A DNA stretch of 64,000 nucleotides from Candidatus Scalindua sp. SCAELEC01 (GTDB taxonomy: Bacteria > Planctomycetota > Brocadiia > Brocadiales > Scalinduaceae). This document shows, one piece after another, positions 2,012 through 13,401 of this stretch. The notes beneath the pieces are model-generated. The model saw nothing but the letters and a program-made list of their open reading frames with translations. It ran no database searches and was not told the DNA's origin. The stretch lies in contig SHMT01000002.1 of NCBI GenBank assembly GCA_004282745.1, positions 62,001 through 126,000 of the forward strand. Direction: 5' to 3'. The first letter of the stretch is position 1. Every line of letters starts with the position of its first letter. A program made the position numbers and the translations under genes.

Positions 2012-5000
2012 TTATTCGTCTCTGAAGAGTTGTTCTTTAGATTCTTTCACAAAATTGTCAGAATTTTTTACATGAATATCACGTTGAGGGAACGCAATTT
2101 CGATACCCGCTTCTTTAAATTTGCTGTGGATTGCAGTCTGGATTTCATGCATCGTTGCCAGCCGTTTATCCAGGTTTGGTAGGTAGCAACGTAACACCAT
2201 GTTCAATGTACTGTCCCCAAATTTTTGGAACATTGCAAAGGGAGCAGGGTCTTTCAAGACCTCAGAATGTTCGTTCGCAATCTCCAAAAGCAGTTCTCGC
2301 GCGTGCTCTACGTCAGATCCATAGGCAATGCCCACATCAATGCTGAATCTGTTAATGGAGTTAGAGAGTGTCCAGTTAAGAATACGTCCGGTGATAAATT
2401 CCTTATTAGGAACCACGTATTCCTGACGATCCCAATTGGTGATTGTTGTGGCACGAATCTTGATTTTGGTAACAATCCCCGACACATCCGAAACGGTTAC
2501 GATATCGCCTACACGTATAGGGCGTTCTACAAACAGCACGATACCACACACAAAGTTTGCCACTATCTCCTGTAAGCCAAATCCGATACCAACGCTAAGG
2601 GCGGCAAATAACCAACCTAATTGCGACCAGTTCACTCCCAGAATTTTAGAGATAAAGAGTAAGCCTATTATAATGAGAATGTATTGGCTGATCGATGTGA
2701 TAGCATAGCGGCTTCCCATCTGAATCGGCAGGTTCTGGAGAATGGAGATTTCGAGAACACCAGGCAGGTTTTTCGCTGCGACAGCCGTAATAATGCCTAC
2801 TGCCAGACAGAGTATTAAATGAAACAGGGTAACCCACTGTTGCGTAGGACTGCCGTCAACAACCACAGTGTGCTGCCAAAGATATATTTTATTCAGTACA
2901 TTGAGTGCAGGCAATACAGCAGCCCAGATTATCCAGATCCCAATGACTGCCGAAAAACCGATAAAAAACCTGAGTAAATTTCTCGTTTGTTCTTTTACTG
3001 CTGAAAGGTTAACAACGGGTTCTTCAAATTGTGGTAAGGATACTTCTGCTGTCTCCGTTGTCTCTCCTGTAGCGCTCTTTGTGGCAGCGGCTCTTCGTCT
3101 TTCCAGAGCTTGTTCCAATGCAAGTTTTCGTTCACGTATGTAAAACCACCTGATACCTAGATAATAAGCAATGACTGCCCCAAATAATATCCACAGGGTT
3201 TGCAGTAACTTAAGACCTAGTTGATATGCGACATAGTAATAGCCAAAAGCCGCCAATCCCGCCAGTGATATTGGTAGTAATATTGCGGCAGGATACCAGA
3301 GCCACGTCATGCGTGACAGCCATCCGTTAGGATTCGCTAAGATAATATTTTCAAATATGCCTTTTTTGGGATTAATGAGCCTCTTTATGAAAACGGCAAA
3401 GGCCACCATACCTATAATAAAACTCAATCTCCCCAGGCTGTCACGAAAATCACTATTGCTCTGATATTCCACCAGAGTCGTGAAGAAACTTGTTGTTGAA
3501 ACAATCACAAGCAGCCAAAACAGATTATTACGAAGGATTTTTAAAGTAGTCTTCTTCCACTTGAAATGAGATTCACCAAGGCCTTTTTTATAGCAGACGG
3601 CTCTGAAAAATTGAAAGCTTACCAAGAAAAAGCAAGTAAAAAGCAGTCCAAACCCACACGCTTTAACAAATTCAACAGCCCCTTCCATCTTCAGTAACTG
3701 CCAGGAGATAAATCCCAGGAAGAACGGAAAAGGAATAGCGGATAGAGCCGTTAATAATAAGGCAAGGATAGTATATTTAAAATGATCTGTAGATATTCTC
3801 CAGATGTTATTGGACACCTCCTCCAGCTCTTTCTTGAGCTTGGCTCTTGTGAAAAGTAACCAGAATGTTAACAACAAGGATATCCCGGATAAAACCGGAG
3901 AATTGGTAAAGACTTTCAAACTGGCATTGCCCAGCTCTTTCAGATTATCGGGAGATACTAACCAGTTAAATGAACTGATAAGTTTATTCCATGTTGCCAT
4001 TTTTATAGCTGGTGAACTGGGTACCCACATTAATTGTTCGTCCATAAATGCAGCATAAATCTGAGCTTTTTCTATGTATTGATTCAATTCGGAATGGAGT
4101 TGCCCCAGTGATTTGAGAAGACTTCCATATGTGGTATCTAACTGATTGAGAAGTTCCCTCTTTTTGTCCAACAGTTTTACAATTTCACTCTCAATATTAT
4201 TTCTGTTTTCATCAAACAATGACCCTTGAACTTTCTTACTCATTATACGAGCTGCTTCCTGCCGAGTATTACTAATGGTCTTGATTTGCTCATACAACCG
4301 AAATCGGTTCAATCTTGTCGCTGTGATTTCTTCCCCTAATTCCTTACTGGTTTTGAGACTTTGCCTTAAATCAGGAAGTCTCCGTCTCTGGTCCAGTAGG
4401 ATTTCTACCAAAACCTTATCCATTCCACCTGCAATCTCAATCTGTTTTTTTGCGTTATCATAATCCAGGTTAAATTGATTGATATGCCCACTCAGAATCT
4501 CTCGCTTTGGTGAGATAGTACTTATCCGTTCCGTTACTTTTACCAGTTCAACTGACAGCCCAGAATTTTCTTCAGCGAGTTCCATTACGGCAGGATGCTT
4601 TCCAATAGATTCACGTTCAGCCTTTTTAGCAGCATATTTGGCTTGCTGCACCTCTTTATAACGAAGCTTGTTTGCCATATCTTCAAGAGCTTTTACCAAG
4701 ACTTCTTGATTTGATACCTTTATCGTGAAAACTTCACTGGCGGCAACCAGTAATTCTTTATTCAGATCATGGCTCAGCAACTCCTGTTCAAGCTTGATGA
4801 TTTCATCGGTCTTCGCTCTTTGCCTGGCTTTAAGAAGCGTTATTCGGCCATTAGATTCAATCGGGTTCTCCCCCTCAAGAGCACCTGCCTTGAGATTGTG
4901 TCCATATTTTTCCAGTTTCTTTTTCGCCTCAATAATGTTAAGCTGAATCTTTTCCGGACGACTCTGGATATTTATTATTTCTGCCTCTATGTCAGATAAT

Positions 5001-5473
5001 TTATTTTTCAATTCCAGCAGATCTCCCTGTTCTTTAGCAAGTCTTACTTCCACCTCCTTAGATGTTGCATAACCCGAAATATCGACAGGTAAAGGTTGAT
5101 TTTTTGTGTCAGGCTTTTGCAACTCCAGTAACTCTTCCTGATATTTCTTGATCTCTTCTGGAGCGGCCGCGATATAACGTTTTAAGTCTTCGACTTCAAT
5201 TTTCTGTTGTTTAGATAACGCGAGCTGATATAATGAGTCTTTGTACTGTTTAAGCAATTTTTTGCGAACGTCTTCATTAAGCTCCATGTTGCCTTCAATT
5301 TCGACCATCAAAGTTCTGATTTTATTGATACTCACCCCTTCGGTGTTTGATGGTAACGCTACATGAGTCTGCTCAGAAGAAGAATTGCTCTGCTGGGCAT
5401 ACAGATTTAGGCCGCCCATACCCAATGCCAAGATAAAGGTAACTACAATGTGTTGCAGATACCTCTTTTTCAT
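2012..5473 (-). CDS. MscK/KefA-like mechanosensitive ion channel
   Basis: A 1153-residue channel protein. The start was placed at MKKRYLQH (ATG at 5473) because it is followed directly by a signal-peptide-like hydrophobic stretch ending in YAQ; the frame stays open to 5575, but those residues would bury the signal. Residues about 30-500 are charged and coiled-coil-like (periplasmic), then about ten membrane spans follow. The MscS core starts near residue 950 with VGIGFGLQEIVANF and ERPIRVGD, and the cytoplasmic cage domain includes YVVPNKEFITGRILNW. Function: tension-gated solute release on hypo-osmotic shock. Residues 270-300 of the C-terminal half carry an Ala/Glu/Arg-rich loop between spans. 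Paralogous in layout to the gene downstream. Neither possible start has a strong ribosome site. Confidence 0.92.
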   Translation of the reverse strand: MKKRYLQHIVVTFILALGMGGLNLYAQQSNSSSEQTHVALPSNTEGVSINKIRTLMVEIEGNMELNEDVRKKLLKQYKDSLYQLALSKQQKIEVEDLKRYIAAAPEEIKKYQEELLELQKPDTKNQPLPVDISGYATSKEVEVRLAKEQGDLLELKNKLSDIEAEIINIQSRPEKIQLNIIEAKKKLEKYGHNLKAGALEGENPIESNGRITLLKARQRAKTDEIIKLEQELLSHDLNKELLVAASEVFTIKVSNQEVLVKALEDMANKLRYKEVQQAKYAAKKAERESIGKHPAVMELAEENSGLSVELVKVTERISTISPKREILSGHINQFNLDYDNAKKQIEIAGGMDKVLVEILLDQRRRLPDLRQSLKTSKELGEEITATRLNRFRLYEQIKTISNTRQEAARIMSKKVQGSLFDENRNNIESEIVKLLDKKRELLNQLDTTYGSLLKSLGQLHSELNQYIEKAQIYAAFMDEQLMWVPSSPAIKMATWNKLISSFNWLVSPDNLKELGNASLKVFTNSPVLSGISLLLTFWLLFTRAKLKKELEEVSNNIWRISTDHFKYTILALLLTALSAIPFPFFLGFISWQLLKMEGAVEFVKACGFGLLFTCFFLVSFQFFRAVCYKKGLGESHFKWKKTTLKILRNNLFWLLVIVSTTSFFTTLVEYQSNSDFRDSLGRLSFIIGMVAFAVFIKRLINPKKGIFENIILANPNGWLSRMTWLWYPAAILLPISLAGLAAFGYYYVAYQLGLKLLQTLWILFGAVIAYYLGIRWFYIRERKLALEQALERRRAAATKSATGETTETAEVSLPQFEEPVVNLSAVKEQTRNLLRFFIGFSAVIGIWIIWAAVLPALNVLNKIYLWQHTVVVDGSPTQQWVTLFHLILCLAVGIITAVAAKNLPGVLEISILQNLPIQMGSRYAITSISQYILIIIGLLFISKILGVNWSQLGWLFAALSVGIGFGLQEIVANFVCGIVLFVERPIRVGDIVTVSDVSGIVTKIKIRATTITNWDRQEYVVPNKEFITGRILNWTLSNSINRFSIDVGIAYGSDVEHARELLLEIANEHSEVLKDPAPFAMFQKFGDSTLNMVLRCYLPNLDKRLATMHEIQTAIHSKFKEAGIEIAFPQRDIHVKNSDNFVKESKEQLFRDE

Positions 5474-5712
5474 TGATTTAACAACACCTGTATGCATTAT
5501 GTACGTAACGGCCAATCGTTTGGCTTTATCCTGGTGTAATAGTTCTTGCGCGTTCTGGTATGGCATGTCAGGCATTATAATTTATAACAATAATGAAATC
5601 GATAAAAAAATAGTTATCACAAAAACAGGCAGGGCGCCATTTTGATTAACGGCCAAAATAACCATTTTTTCAACTCAATGACACTTCAACAGTTTTGTAT
5701 AGGAGGCTTTTC

Positions 5713-7915: not shown

Positions 7916-7968
7916 CCTTCATGGTTTTCAAGTAAGGAGCTTTGCATCTGGTCGAAAAAGGAAAGCTT

Positions 7969-9279
7969 ATGTCAATGAGTAACACATTATTATCAGTTAT
8001 CAAAAAACTTATCGAAGATGACCATGCAAAGGTTGCCCGAATAATCGAGAGCCTGGATGATTCAGAGGCAATTGAGGTCTTGAAAGTCCTCCCTCCTTTA
8101 CAATCTGCAAAAGTAATTTATGACCTGCAGCCAAGTCTTGTTGCCTCCTTTCTCATTCAAGTTCCGGACGAATATTTCGAAGGAATTGTTGATAGTTTAG
8201 ATCCCCAAAAGATCAGTGATATAATTCTCAGCTTACCGGATGAACTCAGAGGCAACCTCCTTCAAAAGACCCCTGAAAAGAAAAAGAGCCTTATCAGAGA
8301 ATTGCTCACCTTTCCGGAAGAGAGCGTTGGCCGTATTGTAAGCAGAGACTATCTGGCATTTCATGTTGACTTACGAGTGAAAGACATTATCAACAAGATC
8401 AGGTTAATGGCACGCAGGAAGTCATCATTCGCATATGCCTATGTAGTGGACGGTGATCATCGGTTAATTGGTGTATTGAGAATGTTTGATCTCATTGCCG
8501 CATCCAGAGAGGCTACCATTGGGGCAATTATGAGAAGAGAGATATATTCCATAGATAGTTTTTCAAGTAGAGAGCAGGCTGCCAACTATTTTAAAGTCCA
8601 CAGATATTCAGCGGCACCTGTTGTGAATAGCGAAAACCGTCTGCTTGGAATTGTTAAAGCTGAGAAACTGATCCAGGAGGCGTGGGAAGATATTGGTGAA
8701 GATATCCAGAAGATGGTTGGAGTAGCACCTGAGGAACGCACTTTTTCATCTTTATGGTTTTCTCTTCGTAAACGTCTGCCGTGGCTTAATGTAAATTTGG
8801 CAACTGCATTTGCCGCTGCAGGTGTAGTTGCACTATTTGAGGATATCATCCATCAGATTACGGCCCTGGCGATTTTTCTTCCTGTTGTTGCAGGACAGGG
8901 TGGTAATGCAGGCGCACAGACCTTGGCCGTTGTCATGAGAGGGCTGGTTATGCGGGAAATTTCTAAGGCCAGGGTAAAAGGTTTGGTCTTGAAGGAGTGT
9001 ATGTTAGGAGCTCTAAATGGAATTATCATAGGCCTCATAACAGCCGTAGTAGCCTGGTTATGGAGGGGTAACCCTTTCCTGGGAATCGTTATCGGTTTGG
9101 GAATGATTGTAAATATGATCGTAGCAGGATTTGCCGGTGCGACAATTCCGATTGTTATGAAGAAACTGGGGATAGATCCGGCGCAATCATCAAGCATTAT
9201 CTTAACGACAATTACCGACGTAGTGGGGTTCTTTGCATTTCTCAGCTTTGCCGTAATGTTCCAGAAACTTATCACCTAA
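7969..9279 (+). CDS. mgtE: Magnesium channel MgtE
   Basis: A 436-residue member of the MgtE Mg2+/Co2+ channel family of the inner membrane. Residues 1-125 are the superhelical N domain, about 130-250 a pair of CBS domains that sense Mg2+, and about 280-436 five membrane spans. The pore signature GGNAGAQTLAVVMRGL and the final-helix signature TITDVVGFF are both intact, so the channel should be functional. The start was chosen at ATG 7969 because AAAGGA lies 6 bases upstream. The frame extends back to a TTG at 7942, but the AAGGAG there is only a base or two away from that codon. A second ATG lies at 7975. No Mg2+ riboswitch was recognised upstream, where a family A repeat ends at about 7915. 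Confidence 0.95.
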   Translation: MSMSNTLLSVIKKLIEDDHAKVARIIESLDDSEAIEVLKVLPPLQSAKVIYDLQPSLVASFLIQVPDEYFEGIVDSLDPQKISDIILSLPDELRGNLLQKTPEKKKSLIRELLTFPEESVGRIVSRDYLAFHVDLRVKDIINKIRLMARRKSSFAYAYVVDGDHRLIGVLRMFDLIAASREATIGAIMRREIYSIDSFSSREQAANYFKVHRYSAAPVVNSENRLLGIVKAEKLIQEAWEDIGEDIQKMVGVAPEERTFSSLWFSLRKRLPWLNVNLATAFAAAGVVALFEDIIHQITALAIFLPVVAGQGGNAGAQTLAVVMRGLVMREISKARVKGLVLKECMLGALNGIIIGLITAVVAWLWRGNPFLGIVIGLGMIVNMIVAGFAGATIPIVMKKLGIDPAQSSSIILTTITDVVGFFAFLSFAVMFQKLIT

Positions 9280-9376: not shown

Positions 9377-11374
9377 TTAACGCATAGTTTCCAGCAGATA
9401 CTCCAGAATTCTATTAGGACGAAAGTTTTTTTTCGTACTCATGAACTGTGGTAACAGAGCTGGCGGATCAATCATTTTTCGTTGAACGAGCTCACCGATT
9501 ATATCCAAATACTCAAATGAGGTTTTGCCAACAAACAATGGCCTTATATCATAGTTTTTGAATAGCTGTAATGCCTTTCGCAATCCTCTTAAATACAAGA
9601 AATCTTTTGTAAAACCTCCTCCTCGATAGACACGTGCCGTTATTTTGAAGGTTTCATTTTGATTTAATCCGTAATCTTCCATTAATATCTTGAATGTCCG
9701 GGAAAAATCATATTCCGTTATCATCATTCTAACGGCAATCACTCTCAATGCGAGCACTTTCAGCCGTTGCAACGTTAAATTGCCTGTCATGTATTCGCTC
9801 AAAATTGCAAGCCCCTCCTGTGTACAGGTATTTCCGGGTAGTCCCAATTTAAGGACCTTCAGTTTTTGGTTTTCACTATTAACGGTTGTTAACATGTGCA
9901 CTTCCAACTCGTGATGAATCAATGCATCGAGTTCCCTTTTGTTAACGCAGGCAGACTTGTTAATCTGAATCAATCTGCGGGTTGTTTTTGACATAGCATT
10001 GGCTATAATCTTATCAGTTAACATAACTCGACACTTAATCTGGTATTTTTCAATTGCAGTGATAAACGCCTCTCTTATCTCTCTGGCTGGTATCGTTCTC
10101 GCCAGGTTAGGCTCAAACTCTTTAGCAAACAGTAAAAATTCGGCTGTTTTGATATCATTCTCTGAAGGTTCACCGTAATATCGCAGCGAGTTGTAAAGAA
10201 ACTTCTCTTTACCTACCGATGCGATCAAGTCAACTTTCATAGCATATGTATCAATAACATCTCGATAAAACTGCTGAATACTGACATCGGTAATGTCATC
10301 AACCGGTAACCGATAGAGTTTTTCCCTAAATTCATAGGGGTTGATATCTAAATGCCTATAAGTAAATGATGGTGAATAGTTGTAATTTTTTGCAAAAAAA
10401 CGCCTTCTTTCCACCGCTATATTTTGGGGATTAATATATGTTAGGGTTTCAATCCCCTTTGCAAGTTGATACAGCTGTCTATCCAGCTTGTGAATTGATG
10501 GTTCTACGTTTGAGGAGAGAAGCACCGCTTTTCTGGTATGATTTTTATTCGTGTGATGTTTAGAGAAATAGAGCGCGTTACTTAAAATGGACTGTTTCAG
10601 CACCTCTTTTAATTCAAGCAAAACCAGAGAGAAGAGATCGCCTGTGATTTCATCCATAAAGATTTTTTTGACTTCGGTAGGCAATATTAAAGTGTTACGA
10701 TAATGATTTATGACAAAGTTCGCAAGGTATCCACGCCCGTAAAACACTTCATCCGTTGCGGAACGCACCTCAATATTGTGGAGAGTAGACTTATTAAGGG
10801 TGCTTTTCCAATGTTGAATTACCGAATCCCACCGACTTTTGTCCAATTGTTCGGTACCGATATTGAAAACAGGTGCGTCGTTTATCGGTAATCGCTGGTA
10901 ATTATAGGAGTGGACATCATAAATCAAACAGGCACCAAGCTGTGACTGTATCTTCTCTATCAGCACACCAAGGACGCGATAAAAAACATGGTGCTTATGG
11001 TAACTCACATTGAGTTCCTGCTCAGTCAATGGAGAGTTCCAAACAGTTTTTCCCCATGCCCGCTCATATACACATTGCTCCGGAGAGCGGTTTAGGTCGT
11101 ATTCGTAGCGTGAGTCGAGAGCAACCAGCGTAATCGGTAAGGAAGAGATTAACTCACCGGTAAAGGGGTCTTCTTCATATAGGCGTTCCGCCTCATCTAA
11201 TGCGCATTTATTTACTAATTCCTGACGTAAGCGATGCCCGTTATGAATCGCGGTACAAACAAAAAAACTATACTCATCAATCTTGAGAGAGAACGCTCCG
11301 TCTTCAATAACAGCCTGAAAGCACTCGCCCTCTTCTATTGCCTCAATACAGGCCTGCTCAGACAACAATTGCAT
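9377..11374 (-). CDS. N-formylglutamate amidohydrolase-like domain fused to DUF1704 (QEGLA) metallopeptidase
   Basis: A 665-residue two-domain protein. Residues 1-270 resemble N-formylglutamate amidohydrolases: TAIHNGHRLR, LDSRYEYDLNRSP and YDVHSYNYQR match the metal- and substrate-binding blocks. Residues about 300-665 are DUF1704 (TIGR02421, named for its QEGLA motif), with a metal site HHELEVH (HExxxH) near 484 and TQEGLAILSEYM near 520. The DUF1704 fold is that of the MATCAP/KIAA0895 carboxypeptidases that detyrosinate tubulin, so a peptide C-terminal trimming role is plausible but unproven here. The start is ATG 11374, with AGGTGA 7 bases upstream; it overlaps the end of the ATP-grasp gene by 17 bp, so the two are translationally coupled. 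No signal peptide, so probably cytoplasmic. Confidence 0.85.
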   Translation of the reverse strand: MQLLSEQACIEAIEEGECFQAVIEDGAFSLKIDEYSFFVCTAIHNGHRLRQELVNKCALDEAERLYEEDPFTGELISSLPITLVALDSRYEYDLNRSPEQCVYERAWGKTVWNSPLTEQELNVSYHKHHVFYRVLGVLIEKIQSQLGACLIYDVHSYNYQRLPINDAPVFNIGTEQLDKSRWDSVIQHWKSTLNKSTLHNIEVRSATDEVFYGRGYLANFVINHYRNTLILPTEVKKIFMDEITGDLFSLVLLELKEVLKQSILSNALYFSKHHTNKNHTRKAVLLSSNVEPSIHKLDRQLYQLAKGIETLTYINPQNIAVERRRFFAKNYNYSPSFTYRHLDINPYEFREKLYRLPVDDITDVSIQQFYRDVIDTYAMKVDLIASVGKEKFLYNSLRYYGEPSENDIKTAEFLLFAKEFEPNLARTIPAREIREAFITAIEKYQIKCRVMLTDKIIANAMSKTTRRLIQINKSACVNKRELDALIHHELEVHMLTTVNSENQKLKVLKLGLPGNTCTQEGLAILSEYMTGNLTLQRLKVLALRVIAVRMMITEYDFSRTFKILMEDYGLNQNETFKITARVYRGGGFTKDFLYLRGLRKALQLFKNYDIRPLFVGKTSFEYLDIIGELVQRKMIDPPALLPQFMSTKKNFRPNRILEYLLETMR

Positions 11375-12395
11375 CTTCAATCACCTGCTTAAATTCAGTT
11401 TTTCTAATTTTTAGTGCTTCTTTAGAAGAGATAACACCTTCAACAAAGTCAATTACCTGTTTTTGTAATTTTGTCCGATTAAGTCGGTTAATCCGCACAA
11501 TACCACCGGGACTCAAGACATTCACCTCGATAAGTTTGCCATTTATCACATCAATGCCCACAAAAAAGAGACCGTCTCTGACCAGTTTAGCGCCAATATG
11601 TTTGCACAATCCTTTTTCCGCCTTTGTTATGTTGTGCTTAACTACCATACCTCCGGCGTGTACATTAGAACGGATGTCCCCTTGAGCCGGTATACGCCGC
11701 ATAGCGCCAATGGGTTCGGCATTCAGCATCAAAATACGTACATCACCCTGATCTGCACCTTCAACGTATTCTTGTAATATCACATAGTTTCCGCCTTCCC
11801 GGCTGTTAATATAAAATTCAAGCAGAGAGTGGAAGTTTTTCTGAGCATGCTTTTCGATTAAGATAATACCACGTCCTCCATATCCATCCAGTGGTTTCAT
11901 AATCATCTTGTCCGCCTTAGACTCTCTTAAAACCTCTTCCAGATAATCTATGTTTTTTGAGACATGCGTTACCGGAATAAATTTATTTTCAGGGTCATCG
12001 AAGGTTGAAGTATAGAGTTTATTATTGGCAATCCGCAACCCATCGATATCATTCATAATAAAGACATCGTTACGCACTGAATCGAGAAAGTTGAGTGCAA
12101 TAGCATTTAGAGGAGGTTCACAACGCATAATAATAGTATCAAAACCGGCCAAAGGCAGCCTTGATTTTCTAAATTCTACTTTTTTGTAGAAACTGACAAT
12201 ATTGCTGGGAACAGGAGTTCTTTTTTTTAATATATGGCATAATGCACTTGAAACACTTTCTCGCATTGTCAAATTGGTCAGCGTAGCAACTGCTACGGTA
12301 TGCTTTCTTGTAAAGGCCTCATGAATAAGTCGAAGCGTTGTATCAGTTTCAGCTTCAATTTTAGACCACGGATACATTAAAAAAAGAATATTCAA
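11358..12395 (-). CDS. Glutathione synthetase-like ATP-grasp ligase
   Basis: A 345-residue GshB-type ATP-grasp protein. It has the family opening ILFLMYPW, the ATP-grasp lid/P-loop region MKPLDGYGGRGI (about 165), and the catalytic segment DVRILMLN...PIGAMRRIPAQGDIRSN (about 225-250). FVGIDVINGKLIEVNVLSPG (about 285) carries the Mg2+-binding Glu and Asn. Translation appears to start at TTG 12395 with GGGAGGG about 8 bases upstream. The gene is first in a two-gene operon with the NFGA/DUF1704 fusion. No gamma-glutamylcysteine ligase is nearby, so a substrate other than gamma-glutamylcysteine is quite possible. Family secure; true glutathione synthesis not shown. Confidence 0.85.
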   Translation of the reverse strand: MNILFLMYPWSKIEAETDTTLRLIHEAFTRKHTVAVATLTNLTMRESVSSALCHILKKRTPVPSNIVSFYKKVEFRKSRLPLAGFDTIIMRCEPPLNAIALNFLDSVRNDVFIMNDIDGLRIANNKLYTSTFDDPENKFIPVTHVSKNIDYLEEVLRESKADKMIMKPLDGYGGRGIILIEKHAQKNFHSLLEFYINSREGGNYVILQEYVEGADQGDVRILMLNAEPIGAMRRIPAQGDIRSNVHAGGMVVKHNITKAEKGLCKHIGAKLVRDGLFFVGIDVINGKLIEVNVLSPGGIVRINRLNRTKLQKQVIDFVEGVISSKEALKIRKTEFKQVIEDAIVV

Positions 12396-12474: not shown

Positions 12475-13401
12475 CTACAACCCCAGGATTAGGGAAATGC
12501 TGTACTTGAGATCGAACTGATCTTCTTCGGTTGAATCAAATTCATTGTATAATCCAAATTTTACTCCCAAGTCATGGTAGTAATTTAAATTTATCTTCCA
12601 GTCGAGAGTAGACACATTTCGATACTCGCCTTTGTTTGATATACTCGGATAAAGGTCGTTGTGGATCCCAAGAGTATGATTATCCCAGATCTTCCATAAC
12701 ATCTCTAGTCCAAAGTTCGCTTCCATTACCGTCGTACTGTTCTCATCGCCCACTGTATGGTATGTGCTTGGTCCAAACCTGCTGCGTATATTCAATTTTT
12801 CGTTCTTCACAAATTCATAGCCGAGCCCTCCTGCTGACCTGATACGATAGTCCCAATCCTTGAATTTGTCCCAGTCGTAACCGACTTTAGAAAAATAAAA
12901 CCATTTCGAATCGGGAAGGAGCCAGTCTCTGATCAGGTTGGCAGTCAAGCGATTCTCTTCGGTTTTGTTATCTTTCTCGGTCTGAAGGTAGAACATTGAA
13001 TAGAGCCAACGCTCTTTATTGTCCTCGTATCTCATTTCTAATGCTGAACGAAACTTTGAATTATCTGAGACACCGACCGCTCCGTTGAGGCTAACTTCAA
13101 GGGTACGTTTCCAGTTACGGAAAAACCCGGAGTAGAAAAGGCCCTTATCAACAAAAGGAGAAACGGCAGCCTTTTTGTCGGATATCGCTTCCCCTTCGTA
13201 ATTGATCGATACTATGTTTTCCAGGAGAATCGGAAAGGCACCAAGGTTCACGTGTTCAATATATATCTGTGTATCGGTTTTCTCTTTAACAACAGCATGT
13301 ATTATATCGCCATTTTGAAGCGTAATTATCTCAGCCGATGCTGAAGTTGAACAGCAAGACAATAGGGCAAAAATTAGTGATAGAAATAGAGAACTATACA
13401 T
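12475..13401 (-). CDS. DUF481 outer-membrane beta-barrel protein
   Basis: A 308-residue exported protein with signal peptide MYSSLFLSLIFALLSCCSTS, a short N-terminal beta domain (IITLQNGDIIHAVVKE, residues 24-75) and a C-terminal barrel-like region. The barrel has alternating aromatic strands such as WLYSMFYLQTEKD, WFYFSKVGYDWDKF and SAGGLGYEFV, and it ends in a hydrophobic terminal strand. This is the DUF481/YdiY pattern. YdiY proteins are outer-membrane proteins of unclear role, some acid-induced. It is transcribed toward the ATP-grasp operon, with 79 bp between them, and could be its upstream member, but the gap and lack of overlap make this uncertain. Confidence 0.85.
   Translation of the reverse strand: MYSSLFLSLIFALLSCCSTSASAEIITLQNGDIIHAVVKEKTDTQIYIEHVNLGAFPILLENIVSINYEGEAISDKKAAVSPFVDKGLFYSGFFRNWKRTLEVSLNGAVGVSDNSKFRSALEMRYEDNKERWLYSMFYLQTEKDNKTEENRLTANLIRDWLLPDSKWFYFSKVGYDWDKFKDWDYRIRSAGGLGYEFVKNEKLNIRSRFGPSTYHTVGDENSTTVMEANFGLEMLWKIWDNHTLGIHNDLYPSISNKGEYRNVSTLDWKINLNYYHDLGVKFGLYNEFDSTEEDQFDLKYSISLILGL

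Follow-up and report, generated by a model that had tools for sequence, protein, structure and literature searches.

A GshB-like ATP-grasp ligase paired with a fused amidohydrolase-MATCAP protein in Candidatus Scalindua, and its possible part in a make-and-break amide cycle at low osmolarity

In the tubulin tyrosination cycle, human MATCAP removes the tyrosine from the tail of alpha-tubulin, and TTL is, like the ligase described here, an ATP-grasp enzyme. The NAGGN osmolyte operon (asnO, ngg and an M42 peptidase), which serves osmoadaptation, also places an ATP-grasp synthetase beside a metallopeptidase. RimK adds glutamates and RimB trims them, a proven pair of opposing activities (PMC11957791). 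Human MATCAP works on the tails of proteins (PMC10499314), and the rlo operon of Pseudomonas aeruginosa, which encodes an ATP-grasp enzyme and a peptidase, governs hypo-osmotic tolerance, with loss of the ligase rescuing loss of the peptidase (PMC12239564). Here we describe a ligase-hydrolase pair in a window of 64,000 nucleotides of Candidatus Scalindua sp. SCAELEC01 (assembly GCA_004282745.1, contig SHMT01000002.1, positions 62,001 to 126,000). The first-pass annotation of this window had described a GshB-like ligase overlapping a gene in which an N-formylglutamate-amidohydrolase-like (FGase) domain is joined to a DUF1704 peptidase with HExxxH and QEGLA motifs. Both genes, their places, the end at 9377 and the overlap are borne out (Table 1), and Pfam (PF05013, PF08014), TIGR02421 and the motifs themselves confirm the two fused domains.

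Table 1. Features of the ligase-hydrolase locus and its neighbours, in window coordinates
Feature	Position	Strand	Evidence and remarks
MscS/MscK-type mechanosensitive channel	2012..5575	-	PF12794, PF00924
MgtE-type Mg2+ transporter	7942..9279	+	PF01769; also beside the pair in the congener
FGase-MATCAP fusion protein	9377..11374	-	665 aa from ATG 11374 (searched as 9377-11380)
MATCAP/QEGLA metallopeptidase domain	9401..10483	-	TIGR02421, PF08014, human MATCAP structural match
QEGLA motif with third zinc-ligand glutamate	9806..9820	-	Q521, E522, G523 invariant
HExxxH zinc motif, HELEVH	9896..9913	-	H490, E491, H495 invariant in 12 clade-C homologues
N-formylglutamate-amidohydrolase-like domain, M14-type fold	10556..11323	-	PF05013, 2q7s structural match
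GshB-like ATP-grasp ligase	11358..12395	-	345 aa; PF02955, PF02951, NF009110
DUF481 protein	12475..13401	-	PF04338; upstream of the ligase, 79-bp gap

The ligase gene starts with TTG, ahead of which lies a strong ribosome-binding site, AGGGGAGGG. Its product matches PF02955 (GSH-S_ATP, E=3.8e-55) and PF02951 (GSH-S_N, E=3.6e-19), and exceeds the cut-off of NF009110 (PRK12458), a model named glutathione synthetase (448.7 bits, cut-off 408). It falls under both GshB equivalog cut-offs (NF003573, 267.3 bits against 272; TIGR01380, 223.9 against 299) and under those of RimK (TIGR00768, 80.3 bits against 143.4; NF007764, 52.6 bits against 331), so that curated scores place it outside both the GshB and the RimK equivalogs. 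In the ligase tree the window protein belongs to clade C as described below, and the clade B and C groups are set apart from GshB, to which the branches are long, and from RimK; membership of the RimK family was ruled out by score and by this separate placement. Comparison with the congener gave a dN/dS of 0.06 for the ligase and 0.13 for the fused gene, which indicates purifying selection on both.

For the fused gene the ATG at 11374 is the most likely start, which gives an overlap of about 17 bp with the ligase gene, an arrangement also present in other clade-C loci. The FGase domain of its product (PF05013, E=7.5e-16, 59.4 bits with a gathering score of 28.9, residues 40-215) retains the conserved catalytic residues H46, E70, R91, D95, H157 and E236, and the protein reaches 13.2 bits with the HutG N-formylglutamate deformylase model TIGR02017, far under its cut-off of 278.75. 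The MATCAP domain occupies residues 327-663 (PF08014, E=7.9e-101) and exceeds the cut-off of the QEGLA model TIGR02421 (396.7 bits, cut-off 338.65). Modelled with AlphaFold2 using 11 clade-C homologues (mean pLDDT 88), the protein matches the structure of human MATCAP (7z5g, E 1e-9; identity about 20% over the matched fold) and two N-formylglutamate amidohydrolase structures, including 2q7s (E 2e-8).

QEGLA genes were found in 54 of 369 Gammaproteobacteria, 39 of 349 Pseudomonadota and 49 of 343 Planctomycetota genomes sampled, and fall into three clades, sorted by profiles made from the loci and in agreement with the tree. Clade A consists of solo QEGLA proteins of about 430 aa from Gammaproteobacteria, three of which are encoded next to RimK-RimB (L080, L081, L095). 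Clade-B loci carry an FGase gene, a QEGLA gene and one or two ligases, while in clade C a ligase is followed by a fused FGase-MATCAP gene, as in the window. The first-pass annotation had proposed looking for ATP-grasp genes around DUF1704 and had named confinement of the pair to this genome as grounds for rejection. A ligase adjoins the QEGLA gene in 38 of 43 clade-B and 9 of 13 clade-C loci, whereas none of 47 clade-A genes has a ligase or FGase neighbour; the pairing is therefore kept far beyond the Scalindua genome. In Vibrionaceae, where 78 of 197 genomes match P0001, the ligase lies upstream in all 25 of the best clade-C loci and is present in nearly all loci sampled, and in the order of Thiomicrorhabdus arctica it adjoins four of five. 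In the clade-B and clade-C exceptions a ligase or an FGase gene is missing from the immediate neighbourhood, and several of these loci are cut off by contig ends; clade-C proteins lacking an adjoining ligase include those of Vibrio HDW18, T. arctica and L079. The three-gene form occurs in Sinorhizobium meliloti, on pSymB, and on rhizobial megaplasmids the clade-B triad is annotated as N-formylglutamate amidohydrolase, QEGLA protein and glutathione synthase.

The MATCAP and ligase trees divide alike between clades B and C, with strong support, so the two genes have been inherited together. The window MATCAP domain groups with that of T. arctica (61% identity, support 99) and just 5 of 62 genomes in Scalindua's own order have any QEGLA gene; lateral transfer is therefore likely, and the ligase-hydrolase pairing is both ancient and mobile. 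Catalytic residues are retained in FGase both where it is a separate protein, in clade B, and where it is fused, in clade C. In clade B, the N-terminal ~270 residues of the QEGLA protein are a degenerate FGase-like domain from which these residues have been lost (L099-L112, L198-L215). Nearly every clade-B/C system thus unites an ATP-grasp ligase with one MATCAP and a single FGase that is apparently active. The degenerate domain and the intact stand-alone FGase gene of clade B make an enzyme/pseudoenzyme pair. The possibility that the fusion is peculiar to the Scalindua genome was ruled out, as it defines clade C and the clade-B N-domain is likewise FGase-like, though degenerate.

A second system, of clade B, lies on the same Scalindua contig some 28 kb ahead of the window (G000:C96:31526-36557; L007:5527-10558) and comprises an FGase gene, a QEGLA gene and two tandem GshB-like ligases. 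Between the two QEGLA systems is a cluster encoding a RimB-like retropepsin, an AstE-like M14 hydrolase and a RimK that exceeds the S6-ligase equivalog cut-off (G000:C96:44705-47336; L120:706-3337), and in T. arctica (L009) MgtE-RimB-RimK-AstE adjoins the fused gene. The Scalindua contig also carries CorA, CNNM, MgtE, MscS and small heat-shock genes, together with glucosyl-3-phosphoglycerate-synthase-like (GpgS-like), glycerate-kinase-like and glutamate dehydrogenase genes. Genes for MscS-type channels lie within 7 kb of 10 of 55 clade-B/C loci compared with 1 of 45 clade-A loci (one-sided p=0.01, in a post hoc comparison for which several families were tried). The DUF481 gene was dropped as an operon member because the congener has a different gene at that place, namely a sucrose-phosphorylase-like GH13 gene directly upstream, with a 4-bp overlap with the ligase start (L121:6240-7991). 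This GH13 gene possibly encodes an osmolyte-sugar enzyme belonging to the same operon.

A published RNA-seq comparison of Photobacterium damselae RM-71 at 1% versus 3% NaCl bears on when such pairs are used: 'GshB' (A0J47_RS17020) was up 38.4-fold, a QEGLA gene (A0J47_RS17025) 27.5-fold and RimK 52-fold, and the induction of 'GshB' was taken by the authors as glutathione synthesis (PMC10308900). The two tags are consecutive and lie on chromosome II (PMC10308900). Because Photobacterium sp. DA100 has its clade-C pair on a 2.1-Mb second replicon, the induced genes are probably the clade-C pair, an identification made from adjacency and annotation in a species of a different phylum from Scalindua. 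The best reading of the module in clades B and C is that it serves adaptation to low osmolarity. The pairing across distant bacteria and its apparent low-salt induction in one of them point to a probable modification system of the make-and-break kind, and not to the glutathione gene that the annotation suggests.

More specifically, we propose that the pair forms one module that runs a RimK/RimB-like cycle of making and breaking an amide at a C-terminal carboxylate, used when osmolarity falls, a proposal to which we give roughly even chances. We infer the reaction directions, the added amino acid and the substrate as follows. The GshB-like enzyme would activate a carboxylate with ATP and attach an amino acid to it, and the MATCAP domain would take C-terminal residues off again. 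A second hydrolytic step would fall to the FGase domain, which is an M14-like amidohydrolase and would probably act where MATCAP cannot, on a residue attached by an N-acyl or side-chain link. The substrate of the cycle may be either a free acidic peptide or the acidic tail of a protein. The first-pass annotation had suggested that one enzyme adds and the other removes a terminal amino acid; this is a fair reading with a bacterial precedent in RimK/RimB, but a simple add-and-remove pair leaves the FGase domain unexplained. That account is extended here by the wide conservation of the pair, the presence of two hydrolase domains, the precedent of RimK/RimB and the osmotic context.

A lead to a substrate comes from Vibrionaceae, in which the first gene of the operon (L227-L271) encodes MaoP (DUF413), a protein with an acidic tail that in most ligase-bearing loci ends in D-[LIM]-[DE]-[Y/I/F]. 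Divergent upstream is a gene of ~286 aa, LysR-type where annotated, as is hdfR in E. coli, so that the operon start resembles the E. coli hdfR-maoP setting. Among distinct loci with the ligase, 30 of 32 have a tail whose last residue is Y, I or F preceded by D/E; of four loci that lack the ligase, none does. A strict tie between tail and ligase was rejected as a rule because two ligase-bearing loci end in LEDD and one in LSFT, and because MaoP of a V. campbellii without the pair ends in AEDY. An acidic-tailed neighbour as a general rule was likewise rejected (5 of 100 same-strand neighbours in clade-B/C loci, 0 of 77 in clade A), and a search of Scalindua for DUF413/MaoP found none. Judged from its sequence, the MaoP tail may be a tubulin-like candidate substrate in Vibrionaceae only. 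It is tempting to speculate that the ligase adds and MATCAP removes the terminal Tyr or Ile of this tail, thereby relaying osmolarity to a chromosome-organising protein, and that another acidic-tailed protein takes this place in Scalindua, although we regard this extended scheme as improbable.

The low-salt induction could also be explained without any protein being modified. On down-shock the ligase would condense an amino-acid osmolyte (e.g., glutamate) into short peptides, so that osmotic pressure falls without loss of nitrogen, and the two hydrolases would free the osmolyte again. FGase-type domains mostly act on small N-acyl amino acids, which agrees with such a cycle, as do the co-induction with RimK, an enzyme that makes poly-alpha-glutamate in free form as well, and the glucosylglycerate-type and glutamate-dehydrogenase genes in the same Scalindua region. 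We nevertheless consider it rather unlikely, given that human MATCAP works on protein tails (PMC10499314) and that the Vibrionaceae MaoP operon supplies an acidic-tailed protein.

A role in glutathione or glutathione-like thiol metabolism, with the ligase completing a gamma-glutamyl-cysteinyl peptide that the two hydrolases would then turn over, is suggested by the name of PRK12458 (NF009110), matched above its cut-off, and by a single 374-aa PF04107 GCS2-type protein encoded on another Scalindua contig (C55). The scores, however, stay under both GshB equivalog cut-offs. Of the three GshA families, PF04262 and PF08886 are absent from Scalindua, and in most of the gammaproteobacterial carriers tested GshA is encoded at another genomic location. 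To our knowledge, neither MATCAP nor FGase has a role with thiols. Glutathione synthesis as the function of the ligase is thus disfavoured, as far as sequence can tell, and we judge the wider thiol explanation very unlikely. One-way synthesis of a small peptide product that the hydrolases process or mature is highly improbable, since, although ATP-grasp ligases and peptidases co-occur in peptide-product clusters and the pair is patchily distributed and moves horizontally, its surroundings show no recurrent gene for a precursor peptide, a transporter or another biosynthetic step, and the module stands alone in most genomes. A role in anti-phage defence was set aside, PADLOC having given no match for the ligase or the fused protein and there being one weak phage match.

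The present evidence does not support the annotations 'glutathione synthase' and 'flavohemoglobin expression-modulating protein' that these genes carry across Pseudomonadota and Planctomycetota, and a gene that is probably one of them has led at least one transcriptome study to a conclusion about glutathione. Our literature search found no functional study of bacterial DUF1704/QEGLA/COG3930 proteins or of the triad; an earlier prediction is possible, and Iyer et al., writing on amidoligases in 2009, may mention such gene neighbourhoods. If the reversible ligation cycle is true, it would be the third bacterial add-and-trim system after RimK/RimB and Rlo, and one tied to osmotic down-shift. It would also mean that a bacterial operon unites a relative of MATCAP, the human tubulin carboxypeptidase, with a likely opposing ligase and a candidate substrate.

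Among the known systems, GshB/PRK12458 shares the fold and the subfamily model NF009110 with the module ligase, which differs in lying in operons with peptidases and not with GshA, and in scoring below both GshB equivalogs. The NAGGN operon uses other ligase and peptidase families, and its amidotransferase is absent from the window module. RloA-RloB-RloC is likewise an operon of an ATP-grasp enzyme and a peptidase needed under hypo-osmotic stress, but it has a periplasmic retropepsin and a membrane transglutaminase-like protein, without MATCAP or FGase. With the tubulin tyrosination cycle (TTL and MATCAP/TMCP) the module shares the carboxypeptidase fold and the HExxxH + Glu zinc site, and the acidic tail of Vibrionaceae MaoP, which often ends in Tyr, recalls that of alpha-tubulin. 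In contrast, the module ligase is GshB-like and not TTL-like, an extra FGase domain is fused, and at ~20% identity only the fold and the zinc site are common to the bacterial protein and MATCAP. Compared with RimK/RimB, the module peptidase is a metallo-enzyme, MATCAP with FGase, where RimB is an aspartic retropepsin, and the ligase scores under the RimK cut-offs and forms its own clade. Both systems nonetheless join an ATP-grasp ligase to a peptidase that undoes, or in the module would undo, its product, both are stress-linked and mobile, and they are found together, on one contig in Scalindua and side by side in T. arctica.
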